In this document: one piece after another, positions 15,337 through 64,000 of the stretch
Numbering within the stretch: the stretch's first letter is position 1
Layout: each line of letters opens with the position of its first letter
Source: Armatimonadota bacterium
GTDB taxonomy: Bacteria; Armatimonadota; Zipacnadia; JAUWAU01
Length of the DNA stretch: 64,000 nt
Assembly (NCBI GenBank): GCA_030601885.1
Contig: JAUWAU010000033.1
Span: 1-64,000 of the forward strand
Direction: 5' to 3'
Translations under genes and position numbers: made by a program
Notes under the pieces: generated by a model
Seen by the model: the letters and a program-made list of their open reading frames with translations, nothing else
What the model was told of the DNA's origin: nothing
Databases searched by the model: none

Positions 15337-17262
15337 GTGACGTGGCGAGTGGTGCTTTTCTCCATCGGCATTATGGCCGCCACCAGCGTCTGGATACAGT
15401 ACGCGGCGCTGCTGACGCTGAGCGCCCAGGTGGCCATGGCCGTGCCCCCGGTACCGGCGCTTGTCGGCTTTCTCTGTCTGATAGCGTACTCAGCCCTAGC
15501 CCGCCGCTGGCCCGCGCCGCTGCGCCTGGGGCGCCGAGAGCTGCTGATCGTTTACGTGGTGCTGTGCCTCTCGGTGGCCATGTGCGGCGGGGGCGCGCTC
15601 CGGTTCTTTCTTCCCGCACTGCCGACGTTGCGCTACCATGCGCTGCCCGACAATGAGTTTGGCGCGATGGCCGAGGCGCTGCCCGCGTGGTACGCGCCGA
15701 CGGACGCTGAGGCGATCCGCACGTACTTCGAGGGCGCCGATACCGAGGCGGTGCCCTGGATACACTGGGCGCTGCCGCTGGCGGGCTGGTCCTGCTACTT
15801 CGTCCTGTTCATGACCGCCCTGCTCTGCATCTGCGTGCTCTTCTTTCGGCCATGGAACGAGGGCGAGCACTTACGCTTCCCTCTCGTGGCACTGCCGATG
15901 GAGCTGGTCTCGCCCGGCGAGCCGATTATACGCCGCCCGGCACTGCTGCGCGATCCGCTCACCTGGGTCGGCGTCGGGATCATCAGCATCTACAACCTGC
16001 TGAACATCCTGCGGAGCTTTAATCCCTCTGTCCCGGCCCTGCCCCAGTCTATCCCCCTGCAGCAGCTCTTCACCGAGGGCCCACTGCGGAACATCTGGTG
16101 GCTGCGCATCGACATCCACCCGGTGCTGTTCGGCTTCGGGTACCTCATGACGACCGACCTGCTCTTCTCCTCGTGGTTCTTCCTCGTTGTGCTGCTGGGC
16201 GAGTACGCCGTCATCAACTCCCTGGGCTATCAGATACCGGGGGCTCCCTTCGAGGTGGAGCAGTCTACCGGTGCGTATGTAGCTGTGGCGGTGTTTCTGG
16301 TCTGGATGGCGCGTAAACACATTGCCGAGGCGGCCCGGGGCGTCGTGCAACCGGAGAACAGCTCCGCTACGCGTCTCGAGCGCTGGGCCGTCGTGGGGCT
16401 TCCCATATGTCTCGCGGGCGTGGCCCTGTGGCACTATGCGGCCGGGATGCTGCCGCGCATGCTGCTGCCTTTCTATGGCCTCATCTTCACGTTCGCCATC
16501 GTCGCCATCCGCATTCGGTCCGAGGCCGGGCTGCCGACGCTGTGGCTGCAGCCGTTGGAGATGGCCGCAAACCTGCCCGTTATCGCCGTCGGGTCGGCAC
16601 CCTTCTCGCCGCGCGGCAGCATCAGGAATCTCACCATCCTGGGCTCCTGCCACTTCCTGCCGCGCGGCTACTTCGGGGGCCTCGGCTCGTACCAGATGGA
16701 GGGCCTCAAGATCGCCCAGGACGCCGGCATACGCTCGCGCCACATGGCGCAGGCGCTGACGTATGCGGTGGCGCTCGGGCTCGCCTTCGGCATCTGGCTG
16801 CACCTATCCGCGTACTATATGTATGGGGCGAATGTGCTCGAGGGGGGAACCACGGAGGGCGGCTATCGCATCGAGCTGTATCTGAAGCGGTACCGCACCA
16901 TCTCCGATTACGTACAGGCGCCGATCGGGCCGGATCGGATGCGCCTATTTGCCACGCTTGCGGGCTTTGTGCAGGCGGGAGTGCTGGTGCTGCTGCGGCG
17001 CGCCTTCCTGCGCTTTCCCCTGCACCCGCTGGGATTCGTTTTCGGCCTCACGTGGGGCCGGCAGAGCCAGGCGATGCTCTTCAGCCTGTGGCTGTGCAAG
17101 ACGCTCATCATCCGGCTGGGCAGCGTTCGGCTGTACCGGCGGCTTCTGCCTCTGTTCCTCGGCATCGCCTTCGGGCACCTGATCGTCGCCGGGCTCATCT
17201 GGGGACTGATCTCCACGTTCGGCGGCGAGGCGTTTCGGGGGTACGTGGTGTGGTTCCATTGA
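15337..17262 (+). CDS. DUF6785/DUF6784-like multi-pass membrane protein
   Basis: A 641-residue protein with about 14 predicted membrane helices. The first is VVLFSIGIMAATSVWIQYAA, and a distinctive soluble loop lies between helices 3 and 4 (residues about 95-145). Its layout, including FFRPWNEGEHLRFPLVALP and a long C-terminal helical set, matches the DUF6785/DUF6784 proteins common in Armatimonadota and planctomycete-like genomes, distantly similar to OPT-type transporters. Transport of an oligomeric or sugar-linked substrate is a guess from context. GTG 15337 follows GGAG with a 9-nt spacer; the frame is open upstream to 15223. It is divergent from the phosphoesterase/PQQ gene. Confidence 0.72.
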   Translation: MTWRVVLFSIGIMAATSVWIQYAALLTLSAQVAMAVPPVPALVGFLCLIAYSALARRWPAPLRLGRRELLIVYVVLCLSVAMCGGGALRFFLPALPTLRYHALPDNEFGAMAEALPAWYAPTDAEAIRTYFEGADTEAVPWIHWALPLAGWSCYFVLFMTALLCICVLFFRPWNEGEHLRFPLVALPMELVSPGEPIIRRPALLRDPLTWVGVGIISIYNLLNILRSFNPSVPALPQSIPLQQLFTEGPLRNIWWLRIDIHPVLFGFGYLMTTDLLFSSWFFLVVLLGEYAVINSLGYQIPGAPFEVEQSTGAYVAVAVFLVWMARKHIAEAARGVVQPENSSATRLERWAVVGLPICLAGVALWHYAAGMLPRMLLPFYGLIFTFAIVAIRIRSEAGLPTLWLQPLEMAANLPVIAVGSAPFSPRGSIRNLTILGSCHFLPRGYFGGLGSYQMEGLKIAQDAGIRSRHMAQALTYAVALGLAFGIWLHLSAYYMYGANVLEGGTTEGGYRIELYLKRYRTISDYVQAPIGPDRMRLFATLAGFVQAGVLVLLRRAFLRFPLHPLGFVFGLTWGRQSQAMLFSLWLCKTLIIRLGSVRLYRRLLPLFLGIAFGHLIVAGLIWGLISTFGGEAFRGYVVWFH

Positions 17263-17313
17263 GGCAAGGAGAAAGGGGAAAGGAAAAGGGAGAAGACGGC
17301 AATGGCGGGGCGC

Positions 17314-43624: not shown

Positions 43625-43660
43625 TGCCATACGCTGACCACTGCCCACTGGTAACTAAGA
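43625..43660. repeat. Degenerate heptad repeat upstream of tig
   Basis: The text TGACCACTGCCCACTGGTAA and what follows shows ACCACTG / CCCACTG-like heptads, related to the repeats at 47.65, 49.6, 50.97, 51.39, 62.57 and 63.96 kb. Confidence 0.45.
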
Positions 43661-43669
43661 ACTGCGCTG

Positions 43670-46141: not shown

Positions 46142-47653
46142 ATGGGGCGAGAAGTGCGTATCACCCATGATATCGAGCGGCTCCTGGCGGCGCTCCCGGA
46201 GCATATGCAGCGCGTGCTGGAGGCGCGGCAGGACATCGACGAGCTTCTGGAGGTCGTCCTCGATCTCGGTCGGCCGCCCGAGGCGCGTTTCCCCGACGAC
46301 GGCTTCGTGTACCTGGACGAAGAGGAGTGCACGCCGGCCGATATTGAGCACGTGGTGGCGAGGGTGGGCGAATTCGGCCACGACAATCGGGCCGGCATAC
46401 GCCGCACGCTGCACCGCATTTCGGCCATCCGCAACCGCACCGGGGCCGTCGTCGGGCTCACGTGTCGTGTGGGCCGGGCCGTCTACGGTACGATAGACAT
46501 TGTCAGCGATGTGGTCGAGAGCGGGCGCAATCTGCTGCTTCTCGGACGGCCCGGCGTCGGCAAGACGACCATGCTGCGGGAAGTGGCTCGGGTGCTGAGT
46601 GACGAGTTTGACAAGCGCGTCATCGTGGTGGACACCTCGAACGAGATCGCCGGCGACGGCGACATTCCCCACCCGGCTATCGGGCGGGCCAGGCGGATGC
46701 AGGTGGAGCGTCCGGAGAAGCAGCACGACGTGATGATCGAGGCCGTGGAGAACCATATGCCTGAGGTCATCATCGTTGATGAGATCGGCACGGAGCAGGA
46801 TGCCTTTGCCGCCCGCACCATCGCCGAGCGCGGCGTGCAGCTCGTCGGCACTGCCCACGGCAACACGCTGACGAACTTGTACCAGAATCCGACGCTGTGC
46901 GACCTCGTCGGCGGCATCCAGGCAGTCACGCTCGGTGACGAGGAGGCCCGGCGCCGAGGCACACAGAAGACCGTGCTTGAGCGCAAGGCGCCGCCCACCT
47001 TCGATACGGTCGTCGAGATCATGGAGATCGATCGCCTGTCCATCCATCACGACGTTGCTGCCACCGTGGATGCCCTGCTGCGCGGACAGCCGGTCAAGGG
47101 CGAGACACGCGTGCGGGCGGCCGATGGGAGCGTGGAGGTCGTGCAGCGGGAGGAGCTCCCGTCGCCCGACGAGGTCGCCCGAGCGCCGATCGCTCAGGGC
47201 CCCGACTGGCTGCCGGCCGTGACGAAGATATACCCGTGGGGCGTCAGCCGTCGCCGCCTTGAGAAGGCTATCCGTGAACTTCGAGTACCGGCCAGCGTGA
47301 CCATGGACGCCAAGCAGGCTGATCTCGTCATCGCGCTGGGCTCCCCCCACGACAAGCGTCGCAAGACCGCCTCGAAAGGGCCGGAATTCACGGTCCACAG
47401 CAATACCTACGGCCAGATATACGCCTGCCTTCGCAGCGTATTCAATGTGAGTGAGACAGCGCGGGAGCAACTTGCCCTCAAGGAGGCCGAAGACGCGCTC
47501 AGCCGCGCGCTCGCCACGAACGAGTCCGTGGAGTTAACGCCGCAGAACGCGTACATCCGCCGCCTGCAACATGAGTACGTGAGCCGTCACAACCTCCGCT
47601 CCAGCAGCGTGGGCAGAGAGCCACACCGGCGCGTGCGCGTCATGCCGGCGTGA
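46142..47653 (+). CDS. SpoIIIAA/Ycf45-like R3H-domain AAA ATPase
   Basis: A 503-residue protein related to SpoIIIAA and cyanobacterial Ycf45. The P-loop is LLGRPGVGKTTMLREVARV, Walker B is VIIVDEIGTEQDA, and TAHGNTL is the sensor segment. The C-terminal region contains an R3H-like nucleic-acid-binding module around ANESVELTPQNAYIRRLQHE. Members bind single-stranded nucleic acid and ATP, with unclear roles outside sporulation. ATG 46142 follows a GAGG site; the GTG at 46130 is also in frame. Strong promoter at 46092-46121. No sporulation genes are nearby, so a housekeeping role is likely. Confidence 0.85.
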   Translation: MGREVRITHDIERLLAALPEHMQRVLEARQDIDELLEVVLDLGRPPEARFPDDGFVYLDEEECTPADIEHVVARVGEFGHDNRAGIRRTLHRISAIRNRTGAVVGLTCRVGRAVYGTIDIVSDVVESGRNLLLLGRPGVGKTTMLREVARVLSDEFDKRVIVVDTSNEIAGDGDIPHPAIGRARRMQVERPEKQHDVMIEAVENHMPEVIIVDEIGTEQDAFAARTIAERGVQLVGTAHGNTLTNLYQNPTLCDLVGGIQAVTLGDEEARRRGTQKTVLERKAPPTFDTVVEIMEIDRLSIHHDVAATVDALLRGQPVKGETRVRAADGSVEVVQREELPSPDEVARAPIAQGPDWLPAVTKIYPWGVSRRRLEKAIRELRVPASVTMDAKQADLVIALGSPHDKRRKTASKGPEFTVHSNTYGQIYACLRSVFNVSETAREQLALKEAEDALSRALATNESVELTPQNAYIRRLQHEYVSRHNLRSSSVGREPHRRVRVMPA

Positions 47654-47686
47654 CAGTTATCAGTGGTCGGTGGTCAGTGGCCAGTC
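47652..47686. repeat. Heptad repeat (GTCAGTG type)
   Basis: Four degenerate seven-base units, ATCAGTG, GTCGGTG, GTCAGTG and GCCAGTC, stand in tandem between the R3H gene and tmk, overlapping the end of the former. They belong to the dispersed family listed in the findings. Confidence 0.5.
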
Positions 47687-48479: not shown

Positions 48480-49616
48480 ATGGGTTTCAGCGACATCGTC
48501 GGTCACGAGCGCTGCATTGAGGTGCTGAGGCGCGCGATAGCTGCAGAGCGCGTGCCGCAGGCCTACTTGTTCTGTGGGCCGAACAACATCGGCAAGACGC
48601 TCGTGGCCACCACCTTCGCGAAAGCCGTCAATTGCGCTGCGCCACACGAGGGCTCGGAGTTGCCTGACGCGTGCGGCGCCTGTCCGTCCTGCACCAAGGT
48701 GAACGCGGGAGCGCACCCCGACGTCACCATCGTCGGGCCGGTGACGCAACTGCGCTCCGGGGAGCAGAGCGACGGCACCGAGATGTACGTGGAAGGCACG
48801 ATGATCCGCACCGAGCAGGTGGGCAATCTGATCGCCAGCGCCCATCTCACTCCGGTCGAGGCACGGCGCAAGGTATACATCATCCAGCATGCGGAGGCGA
48901 TGAACGAGGCGTCGGCGAATCGACTGCTGAAGACGCTGGAGGAGCCGCCAGGGATAACAACGTTCGTGCTCACGACGCCGAGCCCATCGCAACTCCTGCC
49001 AACCATCCAGTCGCGCTGTCAATGGCTCCGGTTCGGACCAGTGCCGGCACCGGTCGCGGCCGAGAGGCTGCAGGCGGAGCTGCCCGAGTTGCCCGGCGAC
49101 GTCATCTCCGCAGCCGTTGGGCTCTCGGACGGCCGCTTCGGCTGGGCGAAGACGGTGCTCTCGCATCCGCCCTTGCTCGAGATCCGTGATGCGGTGCTGG
49201 AGACGGCCCTATCATTGCCGTCGCTGGAGCTGATTCAGGCTCTGTGGTGCGCGGAGCGCCTGATCGACGCCGCGGAACGGTGGTGGATCACCGTGGCGGG
49301 CGAGGAGGTCGGCGCCGAGGCGCTCCGCCGGCATCGGGATCGAGTCCTCAGGGCCCAGGTCGGCGAGCTGCTCAGCGTGCTGCTCTCGTGGTTCCGCGAT
49401 CTGGCCCTGGCGTCGGCCGGGCCAGACGCCGGCGAGCTCGTCAACGCCGATCGGGCCGACGGCCTCCGTGCGGCCGCAGCCGGGGTGGATCCGGCGGCCG
49501 CGCACGAGGCCTGCCAGGTCATAGGCGATAGCCGCCGGTTCATTCAAATTGGCAATGCGAACCTCCGCCTCGCTCTCGAGGTTATGTTCATCAAGCTGAT
49601 CAGAGGCAGTCGTTAG
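48480..49616 (+). CDS. holB: DNA polymerase III delta' subunit
   Basis: A 378-residue clamp-loader subunit. It has the degenerate P-loop FCGPNNIGKTLVA, a four-Cys zinc module (CGACPSC and upstream Cys), ANRLLKTLEEPP, and TIQSRCQWLRF, the SRC motif of clamp loaders. Its job in the clamp loader is to help open the sliding clamp and place it on primed DNA. ATG 48480 begins the conserved region; the 90 bp before it hold pyrimidine-rich intergenic DNA (CCCTTTGCCCTG) and no ribosome site. It follows tmk. Confidence 0.94.
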   Translation: MGFSDIVGHERCIEVLRRAIAAERVPQAYLFCGPNNIGKTLVATTFAKAVNCAAPHEGSELPDACGACPSCTKVNAGAHPDVTIVGPVTQLRSGEQSDGTEMYVEGTMIRTEQVGNLIASAHLTPVEARRKVYIIQHAEAMNEASANRLLKTLEEPPGITTFVLTTPSPSQLLPTIQSRCQWLRFGPVPAPVAAERLQAELPELPGDVISAAVGLSDGRFGWAKTVLSHPPLLEIRDAVLETALSLPSLELIQALWCAERLIDAAERWWITVAGEEVGAEALRRHRDRVLRAQVGELLSVLLSWFRDLALASAGPDAGELVNADRADGLRAAAAGVDPAAAHEACQVIGDSRRFIQIGNANLRLALEVMFIKLIRGSR

Positions 49617-49662
49617 TCGTCAGTGGCCCCGTCAGTTCTTAGTTGCCAGTCTACGGCAACTG
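49612..49662. repeat. Heptad-type repeat downstream of holB
   Basis: AGTCGTTAGTCGTCAGTGGC and a further TTCTTAGTTGCCAGTC show the AGTCGTN/GTCAGTG units of the dispersed family. Confidence 0.5.
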
Positions 49663-49704: not shown

Positions 49705-50952
49705 ATGATGAACGAAGCGCTCGCGCAAACTGACCCGGAAATGGCCGATGTCCTGACGAGGGAGCTCGATCGCCAGCAGAACACCCTCGTGCTGATACCC
49801 TCGGAGAACTACGCCAGCAAGGCGGTGCTGCTCGCCAGCGGCTGCATCATGACCAACAAGTACGCCGAGGGATCGCCGGGCAAGCGATACTACAACGGCT
49901 GCGAGCTCGTGGATCGTGCCGAGAGCCTCGCCATCGAGCGGGCCACGGAGCTATTCGGATGCGATCATGTAAACGTGCAGCCTCTCACCGGCGCAGTGGC
50001 CAACATGGCCGCGTACGACGCCCTGCTCGAGGACGGCGACACGATACTGGCGATGGAGCTGAACCACGGCGGGCACCTGACGCATGGGCATCCGCTCAAC
50101 TTCTCGGGCCGCTGGTACAACTGCATCTCGTACGGGGTGACGCGGGACGCGGAGGTCATCGACTATGACCAGCTCCGGTCGCTGGCCCGGGAGCACCAGC
50201 CGAAGCTTATCGTCGCCGGTGCCAGCGCCTATCCGCGCATCATGGAGTTCGAGCGCTTCCGTGAGGTTGCCGACGAAGTCGGCGCATACCTGATGGCCGA
50301 CATTGCCCACGTTGCCGGCCTCATCGTCGCCGACGAGCATCCGGATCCGATACCGCACTGCGATGTGGTCACCACCACCACGCACAAGACGCTGCGTGGG
50401 CCGCGGGCAGCGATCATCATGTGCCGGCAGGAGCACGCCCAGGCCATCGATCGGGCCGTTTTCCCCGGCATTCAGTCGGGGCCGCAGATGCATGTGGTCG
50501 CAGCCAAGGCGGTGGCGTTCAAGGAGGCGCTCTCGCCCGATTTCAAGGAGTATCAGCACCAGATCGTTCTGAATGCCAAGGCGATCGCCCAGTCGCTCAT
50601 GGACCAGGGCTTCCGCCTCGTGTCGGGGGGTACGGACAATCACCTCATGTTGGTGGACCTCAGCGACAAGGGCATCACCGGGCGCGACGCGGCCGATCGG
50701 CTCGAGCAAGCCGGCATCTGCGTCAACAAGAACCTCGTCCCCTTCGACACGCAGAGCCCCGTCGTCACCAGCGGGATCCGCCCCGGCTCACCGGCTGTTA
50801 CGACTCGGGGCATGAAGGAGCCGGAGATGACCCTCATCGGCGAGCTCATGGCGCGAGTGCTCGACGCCGGCGATGACGCCTTCGTGATCGCCGAAGTTCG
50901 CGAGAAGGTCCGAGAGCTGTGTGAGCGGTTCCCGATATACACGGACCTGTGA
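49705..50952 (+). CDS. glyA: Serine hydroxymethyltransferase
   Basis: A 415-residue PLP enzyme that interconverts serine and glycine with transfer of a one-carbon unit to tetrahydrofolate. The PLP-binding Lys is in [12 protein letters not shown], and the substrate-facing [18 protein letters not shown] and [11 protein letters not shown] segments are present. [10 protein letters not shown] is also typical. ATG 49705 was kept; a weak GGAGG lies about 12 nt upstream. The folC gene two genes downstream gives a folate theme. Length and motifs are normal. Confidence 0.97.
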
Positions 50953-50968
50953 GACAGTTGCGAGTCAT

Positions 50969-50990
50969 TAGTCAATAGTCATTAGTCAAA
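50969..50990 (+). repeat. Left inverted repeat of the 51-kb cassette
   Basis: A 22-bp sequence of TAGTCAN heptads, identical but inverted at 51383-51404 (pairing verified base by base). It sits 17 nt after the glyA stop, the start of the repeat tract being at 50963. Confidence 0.88.
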
Positions 50991-51015
50991 CGACATCGGG
51001 AACGGATGGCGACGC

Positions 51016-51387
51016 GTGAGCAGCTACAGGGACCTGCAAGTGTGGCGCAAGGCCATGGGCCTGGTGGTCATGGTGTACCGACACACACAGGCGTATCCGA
51101 GCGACGAACGATTCGGCCTCACCAGCCAGACACGCCGGGCCGCAACATCGATTCCGGCGAACATAGCGGAGGGACAGGCCCGGAAGAGCAATCCGTCGTT
51201 CCGGAACTTCCTGAGAATCGCCCTCGGGTCCATGGCCGAATTGGAGACCCACGTGGAGATAGCAAGACGCTTGAGCTATCTCGACCAACAAGCCGCACGA
51301 TCGCTCCTGCAGGCCGCCGACGAGGTCGGTCGGATGCTTCAAGGCCTGCTCAAGTCGCTCGGGGATGCAGCGGGAGCTCGCCTTTGA
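51016..51387 (+). CDS. Four-helix-bundle protein (23S rRNA intervening-sequence protein type)
   Basis: A 123-residue member of the four-helix-bundle family first noticed as ORFs inside 23S rRNA intervening sequences. The characteristic N-terminus is YRDLQVWRKAMGLVVMVY. ATSIPANIAEGQARKSNPSF, LRIALGSMAELETHVEIA and a final helix complete the bundle. It has no catalytic residues that I can see, and its molecular function is not established. GTG 51016 has a weak ribosome site. It is enclosed by perfect inverted 22-bp repeats, so the gene seems to travel with them. Confidence 0.9.
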   Translation: MSSYRDLQVWRKAMGLVVMVYRHTQAYPSDERFGLTSQTRRAATSIPANIAEGQARKSNPSFRNFLRIALGSMAELETHVEIARRLSYLDQQAARSLLQAADEVGRMLQGLLKSLGDAAGARL

Positions 51388-51404
51388 CTAATGACTATTG
51401 ACTA
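51383..51404 (-). repeat. Right inverted repeat of the 51-kb cassette
   Basis: Perfect inverted copy of 50969-50990, beginning inside the last codons of the four-helix-bundle gene. Further units (TTGACTG, ACGACTC) extend to 51418. Confidence 0.88.
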
Positions 51405-51430
51405 TTGACTGACGACTCCCTCCTGTCCAC

Positions 51431-52828
51431 ATGACCTACCACGAGGCAATCGCCTACCTCGAGTCCTTCGTTGACTACGAGAAGCTGATGGGATACGTGT
51501 ACGATCCCGTCCGCTTTAACCTCGCTCGCCCGCGCCGCCTCCTGGCAGCGCTCGGCAACCCCCAACAGCGCTTCGACGCGATACACATCGCCGGTACCAA
51601 GGGCAAGGGGTCGGCGGCGATCATGACGGATGCCATGCTGCGCGCTGCCGGCTACCGCAGCGGCCTATTCACCCAACCACATCTCGTCTCGTTCCGAGAG
51701 CGCATTGTTACCGACGGCGAACTCATCCCCGAACAGAACCTGGCGGCGCTCGTCGAGCGCGTGCAGCCGGCCATCGAAGAACACAAGGAGCATCCGGAGG
51801 AGGGCCGGCTGAGCTTCTTTGAGATATATACGGCCCTGGCCCTGCTGTACTTCGCCGAGCGCGGGGTCGATCTTGCCGTCATGGAGTGCGGCCTCGGCGG
51901 GCGCCTGGACGCCACCAACGTGCTCGCGCCGGTGGTATGCGCCATCACGCCTGTCGGCATTGAGCACACGGCGGAGCTGGGCGACACGCTCGCGGCCATC
52001 GCCGGCGAGAAGGCCGGCATCATAAAGACGCACACGCCGCTCGTCATGGCCCCGCAGGAGCCCGAGGCGGAGGAGGTGATCCTGCGGACCGCCACCGACA
52101 GGGAGGCCGAGGTATATCGGGTCATCGTCGCTGCCGCGGCGACAAGCGGCGAGGGCGCGGTGATGCCGGGCCAACTGCCCACTATCCGCGCTGTGCCCGG
52201 GCGAGTCCGGAACGGCGGCCAAACGTTCACGCTGAAGTGTCACTCGCCGCGTGAGCCCGACCTGCAGTTCTACGATCTCTATCTGCCGGTGATCGGGCGC
52301 CATCAGGTGGCCAACGCGGCTGTCGCCGTGGGCATCATCGCCGTCCTCCGGCAACACTGGCAGCCGAAGCGCGAGGGCGTGGATTGGCCCACGGCGATCC
52401 GCGAGGGGCTGTCGCAAGTGGAGCTGCCGGGTCGCCTCCAGATATGCGAGCGGAATCCATTCCTCATCGTGGACGGCGCTCACACCCGCGAATCGGGGGC
52501 TGCCAGCCGTGCTGCCATCGACGAGTTCATCCCGCACGACAAGCTCGTGCTGGTGCTGGGCTGCCTGCGCGGCAAGAACGTGCGGGCCGTCGCGGAGCAG
52601 TTAGCGGGCGCAGCCGACGAGGTGATCCTCACCGCACCCGAGAGCCCCCGCGCCCTGCCCGTGGAAGAGATGCGGCAGCAGGTACGCGACCTGTGGCCAA
52701 CGGCTCATCGGGCCCCCGATGCGCCTGCCGCCCTTGCGCTGGCGCGAAAGCTCGCCCGGCCCCAAGACGCCATCCTCGTCACCGGATCAATATACCTCGC
52801 CGGCGAAGTTCTGGCTCTGTTGCAATAG
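51431..52828 (+). CDS. folC: Bifunctional folylpolyglutamate/dihydrofolate synthase
   Basis: A 465-residue Mur-ligase-type enzyme that adds glutamate to folates. The P-loop is GTKGKGSAAIM near residue 57, the mid-domain is ECGLGGRLDATNV, which marks FolC, and the C-terminal domain holds DGAHTRESGAA, a variant of the family DGAHN motif. ATG 51431 lies 17 nt after the repeat tract and lacks a clear Shine-Dalgarno. It may have been separated from glyA by insertion of the four-helix-bundle cassette. Length is normal. Confidence 0.95.
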   Translation: MTYHEAIAYLESFVDYEKLMGYVYDPVRFNLARPRRLLAALGNPQQRFDAIHIAGTKGKGSAAIMTDAMLRAAGYRSGLFTQPHLVSFRERIVTDGELIPEQNLAALVERVQPAIEEHKEHPEEGRLSFFEIYTALALLYFAERGVDLAVMECGLGGRLDATNVLAPVVCAITPVGIEHTAELGDTLAAIAGEKAGIIKTHTPLVMAPQEPEAEEVILRTATDREAEVYRVIVAAAATSGEGAVMPGQLPTIRAVPGRVRNGGQTFTLKCHSPREPDLQFYDLYLPVIGRHQVANAAVAVGIIAVLRQHWQPKREGVDWPTAIREGLSQVELPGRLQICERNPFLIVDGAHTRESGAASRAAIDEFIPHDKLVLVLGCLRGKNVRAVAEQLAGAADEVILTAPESPRALPVEEMRQQVRDLWPTAHRAPDAPAALALARKLARPQDAILVTGSIYLAGEVLALLQ

Positions 52829-63892: not shown

Positions 63893-63952
63893 GGTTCACA
63901 CGCCTGTCGTCGCTCTGTGCCCGCTGTGTTCTCTGTGGCCATGCCTTTTCTG

Positions 63953-63977
63953 GCCACTGACCACTAACGACTGCCTT
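63953..63977. repeat. Degenerate heptad repeat at the right edge
   Basis: CCACTGACCACTAACGACTG contains the ACCACTN/ACGACTG units of the dispersed heptad family. The last 100 bases of the window (63893-64000) carry no gene that I can support. Confidence 0.45.
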
Positions 63978-64000
63978 GTTCCCAGTGTGTCAAAACCGAC

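Follow-up and report, generated by a model that had tools for sequence, protein, structure and literature searches.

Genes and repeats between glyA and folC

A small gene enclosed by inverted arrays of short tandem repeats was located between glyA and folC in a window of 64,000 nucleotides (the whole stretch of DNA that was analysed) from contig JAUWAU010000033.1 of an Armatimonadota bacterium. The gene encodes a 23S rRNA-intervening sequence protein (IVP). The features of the locus and the basis of each are as follows.

49705 to 50952, + strand: glyA (serine hydroxymethyltransferase), upstream and co-directional; open reading frame (ORF).
50951 to 51422, + strand: the whole putative cassette, with arrays predicted to pair as a terminal stem of the RNA; comparison of the arms and RNA fold.
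50963 to 50990, + strand: left (5') array of TAGTCAN heptads, AGTCATTAGTCAATAGTCATTAGTCAAA; sequence, inverted-repeat comparison and shuffle test.
51016 to 51387, + strand: IVP gene (PF05635, 23S rRNA-intervening sequence protein / four helix bundle protein); ORF, profile matches and match to PDB 2gsc.
51383 to 51410, - strand: right (3') array, an inverted copy of the left, TTTGACTAATGACTATTGACTATTGACT; sequence, inverted-repeat comparison and shuffle test.
51431 to 52828, + strand: folC, downstream and co-directional; ORF.

A gap of 10 bases separates the glyA stop codon from the left array. Both arrays contain the perfect inverted arm TAGTCAATAGTCATTAGTCAAA of 22 bp (50969-50990 and 51383-51404), whereas the longest stretch common to shuffled arms was 11 bp in 2000 trials; the wider arms of 40 nt are 85% complementary. 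The original prediction had described 22-bp TAGTCAN inverted repeats framing the gene, a right repeat overlapping the end of the gene, and a sole accessory gene between glyA and folC, and these three claims were confirmed. The TGA stop codon (51385-51387) lies inside the right array, and the ORFs place the IVP gene alone between the end of glyA (50952) and the start of folC (51431), with all three genes co-directional. The IVP gene has a GTG start and encodes 123 amino acids.

The predicted fold of the cassette RNA has a long terminal stem in which the arrays pair with each other (z-score -5.5). An Rfam search of positions 50700-51700 returned no match. The locus has the layout of a 23S rRNA intervening sequence (IVS), namely an ORF in a loop closed by pairing terminal inverted repeats, and it is situated in the glyA-folC gap, outside any 23S rRNA helix. 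Cassette ends of the transposase type, also envisaged in the original prediction, were not borne out, the IVP gene being the sole ORF between the arms and no transposase being encoded there. CRISPR arrays have repeats of about 23-47 bp with unique spacers between them; the window repeats, with units of 7 bp and no spacers, were rejected as an array of this kind.

Across the whole genome of 6.8 Mb, the exact triple heptad is confined to these two positions, and the double heptad occurs at one further place, on contig C12, without an IVP gene. The genome contains a second IVP gene (C82:54308-54625), which is flanked by inverted heptad arrays of a different unit (GTCAGTG/TGACCAC). A cassette is a plausible reading of the window locus, and we infer its movement.

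Properties of the IVP protein

We know of no function for S23p/IVP proteins since they were first found in rRNA intervening sequences, nor, to our knowledge, does the family have a known catalytic activity. The window protein matches PF05635 over the full profile (positions 1-106 of 106, E 2.7e-39, 134.1 bits against a cut-off of 33.8), TIGR02436 (E 2.3e-37, 127.6 bits against a cut-off of 24) and PDB 2gsc (XCC0516) over residues 5-115 (E 8.6e-29). XCC0516, the solved four-helix bundle of the IVP family, is a pentamer (PMC4990558). A search of 369 genomes for an XCC0516-like protein found no close match, the best being 58% identical. The PADLOC defence models gave no match to the window protein up to E 0.1, and no match indicating phage carriage was found in 50,697 phage records. 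Among IVP genes at one Mesorhizobium junction (site 1, described below), the median dN/dS is 0.07 over 299 pairs; the purifying selection implies that the protein matters. IVP proteins are basic, with a pI of 10.3 in the window and a median of 8.9 in the family.

The window protein also has a weak but real likeness to Avd of diversity-generating retroelements (PF22296, 4.6e-06; NF033474, 9.7e-08; PHROG 3206, 3.8e-11), a distantly homologous four-helix bundle, and the accession PF05635 has been named in work on retroelements. Identity with Avd was rejected, as the scores for PF22296 (27.5) and NF033474 (32.3) fall below the cut-offs of 40 and 80, and unlike Avd the IVP gene has no reverse transcriptase (RT) beside it. 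This similarity would agree with a retroelement route, in which an Avd-like IVP binds the hairpin transcript and recruits an RT in trans for copying through RNA; a strand-fixed polarity of the arms and insertion after co-directional stop codons (see below) would also suit an RNA intermediate. However, 16 of the 21 IVP-positive genomes of the class contain no RVT_1 match, which led to the rejection of RT as an obligatory partner, and the counts of IVP and RT genes are uncorrelated (rho 0.12). In the window genome, RVT_1 was found only on contig C14 and at C82:277012, and none on the window contig. We regard this route as improbable.

From the basic pI, the 2gsc match, the weak Avd likeness, the RNA stem and the absence of RT from most IVP-positive genomes of the class, we infer that IVP would be a protein that binds nucleic acid, namely the arrays, and that leaves the chemistry to host enzymes.

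Array layout across the family

The layout of inverted arrays is general for stand-alone PF05635 genes. The loci sampled comprised 29 from relatives of the same class and 80 from many phyla, including a few archaeal ones, and arrays were counted in the 101 loci with enough flank. Other copies of the cassette layout, which the original prediction proposed to look for, were abundant: short-tandem arrays stand on both sides of the gene in 81 of the 101, and about 20% of loci are without a clear array on one side. Scored one side at a time, arrays were detected in 88% of cases, compared with 15-18% of control windows 0.9-1.5 kb further out. Each gene has arms that are reverse complementary to one another and a unit distinct from that of other genes. 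A locus's own downstream flank was the best partner of its upstream flank in 64 of 97 loci, and 73% of same-gene arm pairs scored above the 99th percentile of mixed pairs (0/79 for control flank pairs 1 kb out). The original prediction had treated the repeats as the ends of an element. They do frame most relatives of the gene across phyla, but as variable short-tandem arrays with a gene-specific unit they are unlike ordinary transposon ends.

In a set of 103 two-sided cases that still includes some genes fetched twice, the unit period is 7 in 75, 8 in 11 and 9 to 12 in some, and the left and right periods are equal in 95. Read in the direction of the gene, G predominates in the upstream array and C in the downstream one, with G exceeding C upstream in 103 of 112 informative arms. 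Arrays begin at a median of 0 bp from the upstream stop codon (quartiles -4 and 18), and in 49 of 67 loci the neighbour upstream is co-directional with the gene. Most genes of a second sample, 22 gammaproteobacterial genes picked by similarity to another family member, have the same inverted-array layout, as do most of the cyanobacterial plasmid copies examined. Where one genome carries several IVP genes, their units differ.

Some loci depart from this arrangement or add to it. The arms are direct instead of inverted at four loci (L062, L075, L090 and L128). At L041 and L043, repeats of period 10-12 lie upstream of the gene, directly behind an apparent tRNA 3' end (TTCGAATCCCACCCTCTCCGCCA), so that insertion after tRNA genes seems to occur too. 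A block of 3.6 kb containing an integrase, an IVP cassette and other small genes is doubled on plasmids 1 and 2 of Calothrix brevissima NIES-22 (L305 and L306), with 97.5% identity and equal array lengths.

Y1 transposases offer another possible source of the arrays. REPINs with their RAYT (Y1) genes, and MITEs, are likewise short dispersed intergenic hairpins with a possible trans-acting helper gene, and IVP cassettes might be passengers in REPIN-like hairpins whose REP-like ends are moved by a RAYT/Y1 transposase. In keeping with this, the counts of IVP and Y1_Tnp genes correlate (rho 0.55), the window genome has 12 Y1_Tnp matches, and array pairs without a gene look like REPINs. The Y1 count tracks genome size, however, and Y1_Tnp is absent from 3 of the 21 IVP-positive genomes. 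RAYT genes adjoin their own REPs, whereas none of 20 Y1_Tnp genes from the same and related genomes, taken as a matched control, is surrounded by an inverted array pair; the arrays were accordingly rejected as REPs of Y1 transposases. Unlike the hairpins of REPINs and MITEs, the arrays consist of variable, gene-specific tandem heptads, and the candidate helper is a four-helix protein without known catalysis. This origin is very improbable.

Presence and absence in Mesorhizobium

Congeners differ in whether an orthologous site contains the cassette. Cassette L074 lies at site 1, between an acyl-CoA dehydrogenase gene and an apparent 3-hydroxyisobutyrate dehydrogenase gene (names read from translations). 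About 27 of 120 Mesorhizobium species carry a cassette at this junction, whereas in most of the others the junction is bare, the two flanks lying within tens of bases of each other (for example, CGCTGACGGCAACAATTCGGGAGAAAACGATG). An occupied junction contains 1-13 GTAGGCA units, the gene and then 1-15 TGCCTAC units, and in some species a partly deleted gene is found between the arrays. The occupied and empty sites are too diverged for a target-site duplication to be read from their comparison. The Rhizobiales sites are common to many species; insertion is therefore rare, and most of the presence and absence may reflect loss. The same junction is a hot spot; array hairpins without a gene are present there at L204, L205, L211, L212 and L213.

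A search for the empty site in related strains, as the original prediction suggested, was informative at this Mesorhizobium junction, where bare equivalents were found; relatives of the window locus were too distant, the closest genomes found sharing only the class and belonging to other families, with a folC that reaches some 45% identity at most along its length.

In copy number the two arms vary freely and almost independently of each other (rho 0.30, p 0.14), while a change of unit (GGGGAGTA to GGGCAGTA) affects both arms at once, a pattern expected from slippage combined with template switching. Ordinary replication errors alone might therefore make the arms and keep them alike, with IVP as a passenger or host gene lying in such quasi-palindromes and no recognition of them by its protein. 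Errors of this kind do not account for arms at PF05635 genes but not at Y1_Tnp genes or regions 1 kb out. They also leave without account the change of site by protein and unit together, and the gene-less hairpins whose unit is that of an IVP gene far away in their own genome, both of which are described below. We consider replication errors alone an unlikely explanation.

Protein lineage, unit and site

Judged from the protein tree, a protein lineage and its unit stay together while the site changes. Rhizobiales cassettes occupy four operon junctions. At the apparent nuoC-nuoD junction (site 3), the unit is GTGAGTA, GTGAATG, GGCAGTC or CGAATAG, depending on the species. The nuoC-nuoD cassette with the CGAATAG unit (L255) nests in the protein tree among cassettes of the junction S4, which also have CGAATAG (support 95/79). 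A single clade of all nuoC-nuoD cassettes was rejected at p 0.038, a value just under 0.05 from a test picked after the tree was seen. At S4 itself, L250 has the unit GGCAGTC, as against CGAATAG in its sisters. The units of the sister cassettes at sites 1 and 2 are related, with lengths of 7 and 8 bases (GTAGGCA and GTAGGGCA/GTAGGGGA).

A Mantel test of protein against unit over all loci, in a set with about a dozen genes present twice, gave 0/500 permutations with a rho of only 0.10; unit similarity climbs once protein identity exceeds 60%. Periods of 9 and over cluster on the protein tree (8 changes against 12.4 when shuffled, 0/300). Beyond these, the period was rejected as a deep trait of the tree, period 8 being unclustered.

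The original prediction held that gene and repeats move as a unit. The empty sites in Mesorhizobium and the protein-unit pair found at a second junction speak for such movement, but the claim does not extend to the window's own cassette.

Arrays without a gene

Looser heptads of the TGAC/GTCA class are common in the intergenic DNA of the window genome; about 23 arrays lie in a 400-kb span of contig C82, and the window has six. Neighbouring arrays less than 700 bp apart form five convergent G-to-C pairs and one G-to-G pair, and no divergent pair. With tandem units of 7 nt between genes and several convergent pairs, this genome belongs with those that have intergenic heptamer arrays. The following arrays of the window have no IVP gene.

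43632 to 43666, + strand: heptad array, TGAC orientation; array scan.
47652 to 47686, - strand: heptad array, GTCA orientation, at the stop codon of an ORF ending at 47653 and before the thymidylate kinase gene.
49605 to 49632, - strand: heptad array, GTCA orientation, at the 3' end of a holB-like gene and upstream of glyA.
63948 to 63982, + strand: heptad array, TGAC orientation; array scan.

Two of these four lie at the 3' ends of earlier genes in the glyA-folC gene run. A degraded IVP gene between convergent arrays at C82:39285-39645 was considered and rejected, as no similarity was found. Identical repeats elsewhere with no cassette, which according to the original prediction would count against it, were closely approached, since arrays of related unit without a gene are dispersed in the genome; their form also fits non-autonomous copies.

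In all three testable Mesorhizobium genomes, the unit of the gene-less hairpin at site 1 is the unit of an IVP gene elsewhere in the same genome (GTGAATG in G158, the 8-mer GGGGAATA in G134 and GGCAGTC in G171). In two more Mesorhizobium genomes with arrays only, no IVP match passed the search threshold. The shared units suggest that the gene-less hairpins of Mesorhizobium were dispersed in trans.

Heptad arrays also surround a small gene resembling those of cold-shock proteins on contig C12 (L005:1498-1540 and 1825-1922), of the TGAC type before the gene and degenerate TGGTTNN followed by the TGAC type after it; the gene is possibly another cargo, or its position is due to chance. A G/A-rich repeat ending in AAGGGAGAAGACGGC, which differs from the heptads, is common to the window (17246-17301) and three Y1 transposase loci (L282:1223-1266, L283:1264-1307 and L290:997-1046). 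Two of its copies lie exactly at contig ends, so it probably marks a repeated element at which the assembly broke.

Many intergenic heptamer arrays in this genome, and in published ones (PMC4679880, PMC4692102), have no IVP gene. This abundance would agree with a role of the heptads in host regulation, as sites for a factor of translation or RNA decay like that proposed for TAACTGA; IVP would then be one of the genes regulated. A host code should span many genes, yet the IVP genes of one genome differ in unit, and whole arrays are missing from the same junction in congeners. A regulatory role of this sort is hardly credible as the explanation.

Relation to known systems

Intervening sequences of 23S rRNA are excised by RNase III without ligation. 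Those with an S23p/IVP ORF share with the cassette the protein family, the ORF in a loop and the pairing terminal inverted repeats (PMC4990558). In Coxiella burnetii, tandem heptamers (GACAGAT) precede the S23p start codon of the IVS, two or three according to the strain (PMC4990558). Unlike the IVS, the cassette lies between protein genes of an operon and has short-tandem arms of its own unit, and similar arrays without a gene are dispersed.

The intergenic heptamers of Xanthomonas (GGGAATC) and Nostoc consist of 2-26 units close behind the upstream gene, with 70-75 convergent inverted pairs per Xanthomonas genome (PMC4692102). They resemble the cassette arrays in their period of 7, their position behind the upstream gene and their convergent pairs; that work deals with G-quadruplexes, and the sections considered here mention neither PF05635 nor gene-specific units (PMC4692102). 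TAACTGA repeats are patchy direct heptamer repeats between genes of Beggiatoaceae, Cyanobacteria and Bacteroidetes, and their author surmised that the mobile element might be a protein that binds the repeats (PMC4679880). In contrast to the cassette arrays, they are mostly direct and not inverted, and no IVP gene has been linked to them. A figure legend of a CRISPR mining paper lists the 23S rRNA IVP (PMC10910872). A search outside the subscription journals found no literature linking PF05635 or IVP genes to heptamer arrays.

Proposed mechanism and significance

The reading that we favour, and hold to be somewhat probable, is a minimal mobile cassette consisting of one IVP gene between inverted short-tandem arrays, marked by IVP and moved by host chemistry, a mechanism deduced from the patterns above. 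The basic IVP, pentameric if it is like its solved relative, would bind the array of its own cassette, most likely in the form of an RNA or DNA hairpin that is single-stranded. Cassettes, and derivatives without the gene, would thereby be marked for copying into the junctions that directly follow host stop codons. Because the IVP family has no known catalytic activity, the chemistry would be performed by host replication and repair enzymes. Replication slippage would alter the copy number of the arrays, whereas template switching between the inverted arms would keep them alike, with the result that lineages drift apart in their units. The terminal stem of the transcript, as in the 23S rRNA IVS, might allow RNase III to remove the insert, which would make the cassette tolerable inside operons.

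A wider proposal is more tentative, and we put it at rather less than an even chance: IVP cassettes may form a separate class of mobile elements, spread over many bacterial phyla and some archaea, in which a non-catalytic pentameric four-helix protein recognises its own arrays and, by means of host enzymes, disperses both the cassette and the array hairpins that have no gene. Non-autonomous copies of such elements may make up the heptamer repeats known from Xanthomonas, Beggiatoa, cyanobacteria and other bacteria, and the rRNA IVS may be copies that came to lie in rRNA.

The array-framed IVP cassette has the look of a minimal mobile element that is widespread and has escaped recognition until now, its novelty being provisional. 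We know of no accepted origin for the heptamer repeats in the intergenic regions of many bacteria. The strict, gene-specific pairing of IVP and array across phyla joins this puzzle to that of the IVP proteins in a testable form, since every IVP gene thereby carries its own predicted binding sequence. If IVP proteins do move arrays, these cassettes would be among the smallest mobile elements known that consist of a gene plus its ends, with no need for a transposase of their own.
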